The position numbers and the translations under genes are program-made. The notes beneath the pieces were generated by a model. The model did not search any database. It was not told the origin of the DNA and saw nothing but the letters and a program-made list of their open reading frames with translations. From contig NZAC01000024.1 of assembly GCA_002686085.1 (NCBI GenBank), positions 1-42,827 of the forward strand: a stretch of 42,827 nt of DNA. The letters are read 5' to 3'. This document shows, piece after piece, positions 5,867 to 9,037 of the stretch. How positions within the stretch are numbered: position 1 is the stretch's first letter; each line of letters starts with the position of its first letter. This stretch comes from Roseibacillus sp. GTDB lineage: Bacteria; Verrucomicrobiota; Verrucomicrobiia; Verrucomicrobiales; Akkermansiaceae.

Positions 5867-7246
5867 TTAACGGCGGCTGCCTCGGCGTTCAAAGTGCTTT
5901 TGTAGCTCTTCTTTACTGAGAGAACCGTTTTCGTCAGTATCCATCATCTTGAAGCGGTCGGCCATCGGTCCGTGTGCCTCCTCAAGGGCGATGACCCCGT
6001 CTCCGTTGGTATCCATTCGTTCCAGCATCTGCCCTACATCAGGTCGGCGGCGTTGACCGAATCCTCCCCGTCCGCCAGGTCGCTGGCGTCTGTCAAAACC
6101 CCTGCCGCCTCCGGAGGATCGTACCGAACCGGCATCCCGGTCACGCCTGAGTTCTATCTCGTAGCGATGGGTGACCGCCCGGCACCAGCCTTCCTCGTCA
6201 TCACAGGCAAAATAGGAGACCTCCAATTCGAGGGGTTGCTCAATTCGTCCAGCGGAGGAATCGACCTCGATTAAAAACTCGCGTGGATCAATGTCCGAGG
6301 GGGCCTTGACCTTAGGGGCGGACCCTTTGCTTGTGCTCATTTTGATTCCCTTGGGAGTCTTGAATTCGAAATAGAGAGGATCTGCAAGGTTGTTCCAGTG
6401 CACCGTATGGAGAGGGTCAAGGTGGAAGCCGATATGGAGTTTCCCCTTTCCTTGGTCCATTAGTCCCCGGTCCGCCTCGGCCCGGAGCTTGACATAGAAT
6501 ATCTCCTTCGCCTTTTCCTTGTCGCTCTTTGAAGTGATGGGACGGACAATCACAGCCATTGATCCTTCGGGTTTTTGCGTCCGGGGGACGACGCCGCTGG
6601 CGATCTTGCTTGTCGGGGCGGACCTGATCTTTCGATTCAGGTCGGATGGGGAGGTGACAGTCTTGGTCTTTCCGATGAGCTTTTCCAAGTCAGCTCTCAG
6701 GGTTTGAGGATCGCTCCAGCTTCGGGAGACCAGGATCCTGCCTTCCGGGGAAATGATAAATTCCGAGTTGGGCCGATCGCCAAGCGCATGCTTGAGATCG
6801 TTCGTCATGGTATCTGCAAGCCATGGGATTTTTGTATCGAGCTGCCTGCGGGCTGCAGTGACATGCTTGAGCCTCTCTTGGATCGTTATTGGTTGGACGA
6901 GTCGGTCGCGTTCCGGATGGGCAAGGGATTTGTAAACATAGTAGAAATCCAGTTCCTCACTCCTCTCCCGGTAATCATGGTAGATAGCCTCCAGACCGGA
7001 GACATTACGAAGGAAGGGGGGTCATGTCAGACAGCCGAAGACAATCACCGCATGGCGGCCCTTGAGTTTTTCTCGTAGAGCGAAGCTTCGCCCCTCGGCG
7101 TCGAATACGCTGATATCGGGTGCCAGGCTACCCACCGCTGGCATTTTCTCGCCACCGCGCCGGTTTTGACGGTCCTGCCCCAGCACCACGGATTGCAAGG
7201 AGCAGGCCATTAAGAGGGCTGTTGTGATAGCCACGCACTTTATCAT
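5867..7246 (-). CDS. Deiodinase-like thioredoxin-fold selenoprotein (in-frame UGA = Sec75) with DsbD-like and EF-hand regions
   Basis: Read from 7246, one frame runs 459 codons and is broken only by a TGA at 7024-7022 (codon 75). Around it the protein reads VIVFGCLT-U-PPFLRN, which aligns with the iodothyronine deiodinase active site (NFGSCT-U-PxF), so the TGA falls exactly on the catalytic selenocysteine; C72 gives a C-x-x-U pair. Deiodinase-like features continue past the TGA: 'YYVYKSLAHPE', 'TIQERLKHVTAARRQL', 'IPWLADTMTNDLKHAL' and 'SEFIISPEGRILVSRSW' (to about 176). Residues about 229-369 resemble DsbD N-terminal-type domains (C348 and C355 in ACDDEEGWC). A Gly/Arg-rich linker (371-404) and two EF-hands (412-423, 436-447) follow. 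The N-terminus is a signal peptide, possibly lipoprotein type (LMAC). Alternatives are a nonsense mutation, or two separate genes; the start at 6808 is unlikely because it cuts the fold. Substrate unknown. Confidence 0.85.
6980..7008 (-). promoter_or_regulatory. Candidate bacterial SECIS hairpin
   Basis: Directly downstream of the in-frame UGA, the mRNA can form a stem of six pairs, GUCUCC (7003-6998) with GGAGGC (6992-6987), closed by a five-base loop GGUCU (6997-6993). A further GUA/UAC pairing (7008-7006 with 6982-6980) is possible across an internal loop. Twenty-four bases separate the UGA from the first loop G, within the range accepted for bacterial SECIS elements. The loop matches the GGUCU in the loop of the E. 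coli fdhF element as I remember it, where SelB reads the G and U. The hairpin lies inside the coding sequence, as is normal in bacteria. The structure was folded by eye and not scored. Confidence 0.65.
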
Positions 7247-7472: not shown

Positions 7473-8279
7473 ATGAAATTTCTTTTTAGCTCGATTTGCA
7501 TGTTAAGTCTTTTGGCGAGTCAGTGGTCTCTGGGTGCCCTGTGGCAATCTGGGCACGGTGACATTGGTATCGGATTCGACGGAACGGATTGGGATCCACA
7601 CTTCCACTTCCACGAAGAGGAAGGGGAGCATGAGGGAGAGGAGCACAAGGACGATGACGACCACGAGGGCGAGGATGACCACGACCACGACCACGACCAC
7701 GACCATGAGGGAGATAACCACCCCATTATCGATGGAGAGGAAGCCACCGAGGAGGAGTATGAAATTGACGCGCTAACCCTACTGGTTTCAGGGGGACGTC
7801 TGCCGGGTGCAGGTGTTGCAGATTCTGGAGCGGCAGACATTTATGTCCTAGCGCAGGATGAGTCTCTTGCAGTCGCGCAGGGAACGCCTTGGGTTGGTAT
7901 CGCTGTTGAGGAGATCGCTCCGGGCCTGCTTCTCAATGATTTGGTGACCTTGAGCCTTGTCGATGTGTCGGGTCCTGGAGTGTATTCACTCTGGACTACC
8001 GACTCGTTTGGTGGCGACAGTGTCCTCATGTCTAGTGCTCTTGGGTCAGATGCGCCGGACAGCGTGGCTCTCCCTCTGGAGCCTGGCCACTATCACTTCA
8101 ATATGGGCTTTAGCGAGGAGGGCATCTACGACGTGACCTTCAATAGTTCAGGGACAACTGTCGATGGAGTCGAGACTGGTACTGATTTCACGGTGAGCTT
8201 CAACGTGGTGCCGGAACCCTCCTCGGTTCTCCTGCTTGCCTTAGGAGCGTTTGCTACACTTCGTAGAAGGAGAGTGTAG
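7473..8279 (+). CDS. PEP-CTERM surface protein with Asp/His-rich tract and choice-of-anchor-M-like domain
   Basis: A 268-residue exported protein. It starts with a signal peptide of about 21 residues. Residues about 47-85 are extremely rich in Glu, Asp and His, including a DHDHDHDHDH run, and could bind metal ions. Residues about 95-235 resemble the TIGR03769 / choice-of-anchor M domain: 'PWVGIAVEEI', 'GPGVYSLWTTD', then 'GHYHFNMGFSEEGIYDVTF'. The end is a standard PEP-CTERM signal: VPEPSS, a hydrophobic stretch and RRRR, so the protein should be sorted by an exosortase/archaeosortase-type system and lose this tail. The same domain recurs in the protein encoded at 9041. Function unknown; a surface metal-binding role is inference. 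Confidence 0.8.
   Translation: MKFLFSSICMLSLLASQWSLGALWQSGHGDIGIGFDGTDWDPHFHFHEEEGEHEGEEHKDDDDHEGEDDHDHDHDHDHEGDNHPIIDGEEATEEEYEIDALTLLVSGGRLPGAGVADSGAADIYVLAQDESLAVAQGTPWVGIAVEEIAPGLLLNDLVTLSLVDVSGPGVYSLWTTDSFGGDSVLMSSALGSDAPDSVALPLEPGHYHFNMGFSEEGIYDVTFNSSGTTVDGVETGTDFTVSFNVVPEPSSVLLLALGAFATLRRRRV
7677..7706 (+). repeat. Short tandem repeat, five hexamers (GACCAC)
   Basis: Four copies of GACCAC followed by GACCAT lie in frame and encode Asp-His five times. Because the unit is six bases, slippage would change the number of Asp-His pairs without shifting the frame, so the length may vary between strains. Confidence 0.9.
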
Positions 8280-8326: not shown

Positions 8327-9037
8327 ATGAGGACGCGTGGCTTTACGATGGTAGAAGTGTTGGTGGCGATAGCCATCATCGCCATTCTTGCTGCTCTCGG
8401 TTCAAGCGCTGTTTTTGCGGGTCTTGCTCGAGCGAAACAGGTTCATTGCACTAGTAACATGCGGCAGATTGGTGTGGCCTTGACGGCACATGCAATAAGC
8501 AACAACGGGTTCTTTCCAGAAACAACCCATACTGTAGCGGTGAACAAGGCTTGGATTGCCGCGCTGGAGGACGAAATGGGTCCGAACTACGATGAACTAC
8601 GCCTTTGCCCAGCAGATCCATTCAGGGAGGAGCGACGGGAGCGGGGAGGAACGAGTTACATTCTCAACAGCTACATCTTTGTGCCCGAAATTGGGCCTTT
8701 TGGCGAGGAGCTCAGTTCTCCATGCAACAACATGCAGTGCATTGAAGAGCCCGCCCGCACCTTAATGGCATTCATTGTCTCTGAAGGGCAGACGGTAGAA
8801 GCTACGATGGACCATACGCACTCGCGGGGCTGGACGAGAAGCTGGGAGAATGTATTGAGGGATATCCAGCCAGATCGACATCGGACCGGACGGCCAAACG
8901 ATGACCACTCAAGGGGATCTGCGAATTATCTCTTTATAGACGGCCACGTCGAGACGTGGAAGGCCAGCGACGTGAAGCGACGTATCGAGTCCGGGGAAAA
9001 CTTTGCCGAGCCTCCGCATTTGAGAGAGGACGCGTAA
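8327..9037 (+). CDS. Pseudopilin-like protein with prepilin N-methylation signal
   Basis: A 236-residue protein that starts with a type IV prepilin/pseudopilin leader: 'MRTRGFTMVEVLVAIAIIAILAAL', with G5/F6 as the processing site and E at mature position 5, followed by a hydrophobic helix. The C-terminal half has the 'SANYLFIDGHVETW' ending that is common in Planctomycete and Verrucomicrobia pilin-like proteins (H-X9-DG type, here with one extra residue). Such proteins are processed by a prepilin peptidase and lie in the inner membrane or a short pseudopilus; individual roles are unknown. It is encoded 47 bases after the PEP-CTERM gene and directly before a paralogous surface protein, so the three may form one unit. 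Confidence 0.85.
   Translation: MRTRGFTMVEVLVAIAIIAILAALGSSAVFAGLARAKQVHCTSNMRQIGVALTAHAISNNGFFPETTHTVAVNKAWIAALEDEMGPNYDELRLCPADPFREERRERGGTSYILNSYIFVPEIGPFGEELSSPCNNMQCIEEPARTLMAFIVSEGQTVEATMDHTHSRGWTRSWENVLRDIQPDRHRTGRPNDDHSRGSANYLFIDGHVETWKASDVKRRIESGENFAEPPHLREDA

Follow-up and report, generated by a model that had tools for sequence, protein, structure and literature searches.

A predicted exported selenoprotein joins a deiodinase-like domain to a candidate cysteine-pair domain in several bacterial phyla

Does the TGA in this locus end a protein or does it encode selenocysteine (Sec), and what would the resulting selenoprotein do? The window, that is, the whole stretch of 42,827 nucleotides analyzed, covers the first 42.8 kb of contig C24 in a 3.95-Mb assembly that is 96% complete. 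An earlier note had described two open stretches in the same frame, continuous through a TGA at 7024-7022 and free of other frame damage, and had interpreted them as a bacterial deiodinase-like selenoprotein that gene finders would split. The translation bears out this description: reading 7246-5867 on the minus strand with TGA as U yields 459 residues, the sole TGA becomes U75, and no other stop or frame damage occurs before the TAA. The 213 bases between the two open stretches are in the same frame, open, and encode the best-conserved part of the protein. For this frame, the standard ORF listing returned 5867-6808 only (its minimum is 80 aa, and the 74-codon upstream piece falls below it). 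The closest relatives of the gene in public genomes come from Roseibacillus sp. or Akkermansiaceae bacterium, i.e. marine Verrucomicrobiota. The features of the gene are located in Table 1.

Table 1. Positions of the selenoprotein gene and its features in the window
Feature	Positions	Strand	Description and basis
Selenoprotein gene, whole	5867..7246	-	459 codons + TAA, single in-frame TGA
Signal peptide, N-terminal, predicted	7175..7246	-	residues ~1-24; read from sequence, alignment A1 and model
Deiodinase-like thioredoxin-fold catalytic domain	6668..7150	-	residues 33-193; PF00837, DIO2/DIO3 structural matches
Active-site motif C72-L-T-U75	7022..7033	-	TGA 7024-7022; invariant in 82 aligned sequences
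SECIS hairpin	6987..7003	-	GUCUCC/GGAGGC 6-bp stem, GGUCU loop; conserved against a synonymous-codon null, 81 sequences
Ig-like beta-sandwich domain, resembling DsbD-alpha	6119..6583	-	residues 222-376; model and PF11412 matches in relatives
C348-x6-C355, candidate redox Cys pair	6182..6205	-	both Cys in 82/82 aligned sequences
Two C-terminal EF-hands	5879..6037	-	residues ~404-456; PF13202 4.1e-9, PF13405, PF00036

We scanned 84,980 species, found 113 relatives and retained the best 80, which are distributed among Verrucomicrobiota, Planctomycetota, Acidobacteriota and Poribacteria (phyla as named in the records). At the position of codon 75, all 80 genome loci of these best 80 of 113 relatives carry TGA, placed in a GCLTUPPF-type motif: the 79 loci read by pattern were TGA in 79 cases, and L099, with the motif CLTUPSF, makes 80. 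Because one of the scan patterns was able to pick up Cys forms, their lack among the best 80 is informative. We also examined 143 related genomes: here, long homologues from the genus, and from two genomes of another family in the same order, each contain one TGA, and it falls at the same codon. The TGA aligns with Cys in two more distant long homologues, L031 and L032, which read CLTCPEF at this site. In our tree, the long forms with Sec do not make a clade that excludes these two Cys forms; we draw no direction of Sec/Cys change from it. Other selenoprotein families commonly show Cys replacements, which makes the near-total retention of Sec here notable. Within the genus, omega (Nei-Gojobori) is 0.12-0.29 upstream of the TGA and 0.05-0.10 downstream. 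The earlier note had allowed that resequencing might expose the TGA as an error; as independently assembled genomes carry it at the same codon, with purifying selection on both sides, it is neither chance nor a sequencing error.

The SECIS element is a hairpin, GUCUCC-GGUCU-GGAGGC, that begins 18 nt 3' of the UGA and carries GU in its apical loop, which resembles the E. coli fdhF SECIS loop. Its support is comparative: folded as a single sequence, the SECIS region of the window was no better than shuffles (z 0.02), and an Rfam search of the window gave no match. We compared 81 distinct sequences with 300 randomisations, in which synonymous codons were reassigned under each gene's own usage. 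At least 5 of the 6 stem pairs are kept in 81/81 distinct sequences, with a mean of 5.36 pairs observed versus 3.91 +/- 0.10 under synonymous recoding. The folding energy (MFE) is -7.8 observed versus -4.8 +/- 0.27 recoded, and the GU loop, expected in 14.6% of recoded sequences, is present in 97.5%; pairing, energy and loop each lie outside all 300 randomisations. Third-base (synonymous-site) constraint is maximal at codons 82-86, which is exactly the hairpin. At stem position 24/36, C-G becomes U-G and U-A, and 50 sequences that encode Pro have a C-A mismatch at position 25/35. The stem is missing in both Cys-form relatives. A post-UGA hairpin with a G in a small apical loop, of the kind that the earlier note had suggested seeking near the TGA, is significant across relatives and not in the single sequence.

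The selenocysteine machinery, which the earlier note had also named, is complete in the genome. The tRNA-Sec scores 67 bits, above the Rfam cut-off, and ARAGORN agrees, with the anticodon TCA (UCA). SelA (503 bits) is full-length and lies at C24:57657-59000, on the same contig as the selenoprotein gene; SelB (281 bits) is a full-length ORF of 662 residues, and SelD scores 369 bits. The SelD gene, L048:1396-2445 (-) on contig C20, is itself a selenoprotein gene, with an in-frame TGA in SSCAGUASK. Among relatives, selA is present in 13/14 with the Sec long form versus 51/129 others (Fisher p 1.2e-4); the exception, G004, is an assembly that is 70% complete. From other lineages of the wider set, 15 hosts were picked and 13 have selA above the cut-off, while one of the remaining two has a mere fragment at a contig edge.

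Taken as a true stop or a sequencing error, the TGA would leave two fragments or a pseudogene, and standard annotation does yield a truncated ORF and a same-genus copy in G014 has extra frame damage, but the TGA and SECIS are kept in more than 80 sequences from several phyla, both sides evolve under purifying selection and the genome has the complete Sec machinery; conservation already refutes this extremely improbable reading. On TGA/SECIS conservation and purifying selection we rejected pseudogene, sequencing error and code reassignment. The G014 copy, L025 (G014:C122:87036-88327), is broken by a TAA and gives split matches; it is apparently a decaying homologue.

The catalytic domain belongs with the deiodinases. 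It matches PF00837 (T4_deiodinase), the family against which the earlier note had proposed to compare it, with 32 bits versus a curated cut-off of 27, and 12/13 members of alignment A1 match the family at E up to 1; a six-frame PF00837 search of the genome gave no match, and control genomes likewise gave none. Mouse DIO3 (4tr3) is the best PDB sequence match (phmmer). U75 aligns with its active-site position, as the earlier note had claimed for the TGA; the likeness drawn there to SCT-U fails at the Cys, which stands at U-2 in mouse DIO3 and at U-3 here. H110 aligns with the His of DIO3 EEAHPSDGW, so Sec and the catalytic His are at DIO3 positions, and Asn160, nearly invariant in the 82 aligned sequences, aligns with what we take to be the position of the DIO3 catalytic Glu. 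In the same 82 sequences there is no variation at C72, T74, position 75, H110, W142 or D145. The AlphaFold model of the whole protein has a mean pLDDT of 79.9. The best structural matches of the catalytic-domain model are mouse DIO2 (Z 20.1, 2.5 A over 159) and DIO3 (Z 18.6), and ResA-, SdbA- and AhpE-like structures rank below them (Z 15-17). The interpretation as a bacterial deiodinase-like selenoprotein was largely right, and it withstood all three refuting conditions of the earlier note: the Sec machinery is present, homologues carry U or C at codon 75, and the TGA recurs across assemblies. "Deiodinase-like" should not be equated with thyroid-hormone deiodinase: with Asn in place of the vertebrate catalytic Glu, thyroid-type deiodination is not implied. 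Reviews give a thioredoxin-type UxxC motif for deiodinase-like selenoproteins (PMC13188914, PMC9312934), in contrast to the C-L-T-U-P-P-F found here, which is CxxU with Cys at U-3 and Phe78 at U+3.

In related Verrucomicrobiales we also observed a second, short Sec deiodinase-like family of GSHTUGPF type (L033, L034, L037-L044). It retains an acid at the Asn160 position, and several of its genes have their own post-UGA hairpin with paired changes (GCAGGC/GCCTGC, GCAGAC/GTCTGC, CCAGGC/GCCTGG).

Outside the catalytic domain, the protein is predicted to start with a signal peptide: the model shows a helix at 2-19 followed by disorder, and cleavage is predicted near VVLGQ/D. A lipobox is unlikely because the Cys before the cleavage site is not conserved. 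The second domain is modeled with high confidence (pLDDT 92.6) and has an invariant HWNN. Its Cys pair, which L031 and L032, the relatives of Cys form, also have, flanks the hairpin that links strands 118-128 and 133-147 in the domain model; as in DsbD-alpha, an Ig-like sandwich would carry two candidate redox Cys on one of its beta-hairpins. PF11412 (DsbD_N) is the one Pfam family that matches the second domain at E <0.001, doing so in 13/55 members (best 3.8e-6). Those matches of relatives that were examined singly are below the curated cut-off, and PF11412 does not match the window's own sandwich domain. Compared profile to profile (hhalign), the domain and two DsbD-alpha domains from the same genome gave a weak match (P 0.045), and a reverse HMM search missed those two. 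The structure search with this domain returned many Ig-like sandwiches (best Z 8.9, not specific), DsbD-alpha among them, and its profile search against the PDB returned nothing credible. Our designation of the domain as DsbD-alpha-like is tentative; the evidence is suggestive, not proof. The genome also encodes a DsbD/ScsB-like protein of 770 aa with DsbD-alpha, membrane and thioredoxin domains.

A lone DsbD_N protein of the same genome, L131:1369-2232 (+), has no membrane domain and adjoins a sulfatase-like ORF. In a related genome, L045:1498-2571 (-) fuses a thioredoxin-like segment to a similar beta-sandwich with the Cys pair VCEGAEGVC (given as C-x5-C); from this fusion, the beta-sandwich may partner thioredoxin-fold domains more generally in the order.

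From the gene, its decoding signal, the machinery, the catalytic-domain family and the invariance of C72, U75, H110, C348 and C355, we propose, with a probability of about 0.7, that this is a true selenoprotein, an exported Sec reductase of peroxide, disulfide or organohalide that would be recharged by its own Cys-pair domain. In our model, SelB and tRNA-Sec would decode UGA75 through the downstream hairpin. The product would be exported and would fold as the deiodinase-like domain, the Cys-pair beta-sandwich and the EF-hands, which probably confer calcium-dependent stability or attachment. Outside the cytoplasm, the U75 selenolate would attack the oxidised substrate, and C72 would resolve the intermediate by forming a selenenylsulfide (C72-U75). 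As a built-in reductase, the C348/C355 dithiol could then reduce the selenenylsulfide, much as DsbD-alpha hands electrons to its partners, and would itself be re-reduced by a membrane protein of the DsbD/ScsB type, such as the one that this genome encodes. The additional domains suggest thiol-disulfide redox chemistry. Because the Glu is missing and a Cys-pair domain is present, peroxide or disulfide seems the most likely substrate.

The protein could alternatively be a cell-envelope Sec thiol peroxidase, AhpE- or PrxQ-like, with hydrogen peroxide or lipid hydroperoxides as the substrates of U75. Each of the 13 A1 members weakly matches Redoxin and AhpC-TSA, and the AhpE and Bcp structures give Z ~16, but the two deiodinase structures score above these and the window protein's own AhpC-TSA and Redoxin scores are under the cut-offs. 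We consider this specific assignment unlikely on balance; it is one version of the exported Sec reductase proposed above and does not contradict it.

A reductive dehalogenase appears less probable still. Here U75 would act on the halogenated aromatics of marine algae and remove their iodide or bromide, with thiols recharging the enzyme, much as vertebrate deiodinases take iodide off thyroid hormone. The nearest solved structures are deiodinases, T-U-P-P-F and the following His (H110) are common to DIO3, and many hosts are marine; against this, the vertebrate catalytic Glu aligns with a nearly invariant Asn, the Cys-pair domain suggests a disulfide relay, and dehalogenation or aromatic-degradation genes were not found adjoining the gene. 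No conserved gene neighbours point to a substrate: those that recur across relatives are only PSD1/DUF1501-like genes, sulfatases and an ABC transporter, presumably types common in these phyla, and the window's own neighbours recur in its genus only. Among the latter, the divergent neighbour at 7473-8279 (+) encodes a protein with a PEP-CTERM sorting motif and a stretch rich in His, Asp and Glu, and is followed by a pseudopilin-like gene at 8327-9037.

How does the exported Sec reductase relate to known proteins? Sec and Cys deiodinase-like proteins with a likely redox role were reported in bacteria from the Sargasso Sea in 2005 (Zhang et al., PMC1088965); as described there, they share PF00837, Sec or Cys at the active site and a bacterial SECIS inside the coding region, and some of the four sequences may belong to the present subfamily. 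The earlier note, which knew of such proteins, had called a secreted, fused Sec version notable; the kind itself dates from 2005, while the architecture looks new, namely a signal peptide, a C72-x-x-U75 deiodinase-like domain, a Cys-pair beta-sandwich and usually EF-hands. Vertebrate DIO2 and DIO3 (9h48, 4tr3) have the same catalytic-domain fold, T-U-P-P-F and downstream His, whereas this protein has Cys at U-3 rather than U-2, Asn for Glu, predicted export, several domains and a bacterial SECIS within the gene. The NCBIfam model NF038285 ("deiodinase family protein") has the catalytic region in common, but its 69.6 bits are far under the curated cut-off of 250 and cover only positions 174-321 of 347; none of the NCBIfam models scanned was satisfied by the protein. 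The DsbD/ScsB N-terminal domain likewise is a beta-sandwich with two Cys flanking a hairpin, in contrast to which the present domain has C-x6-C, the HWNN signature and the Sec-domain fusion. Over both domains, the top Foldseek match is the C-terminal region of M. tuberculosis DipZ (2hyx, 5cyy), which also combines a thioredoxin-like domain with a beta-sandwich; however, the rmsd of ~14 A indicates a different relative placement, and DipZ has no Sec. No description of the architecture was found in open-access papers on deiodinase with Rhodopirellula, Planctomycetes or Verrucomicrobia, and open-access descriptions of bacterial deiodinase-like selenoproteins yielded none of beta-sandwich Cys-pair or EF-hand domains.

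More tentatively, and at odds somewhat short of even, these proteins may constitute an exported selenoenzyme subfamily, widespread and unannotated, whose Sec deiodinase-like domain would be permanently joined to a DsbD-alpha-like reductase domain of its own and thereby self-recharging outside the cytoplasm, possibly acting on halogenated organics. The selenoprotein subfamily spans at least four phyla and essentially always keeps Sec, yet it is split by standard ORF calling. Its built-in Cys-pair domain makes the role of bacterial deiodinase-like proteins directly testable, and the subfamily bears on the origin of animal deiodinases.
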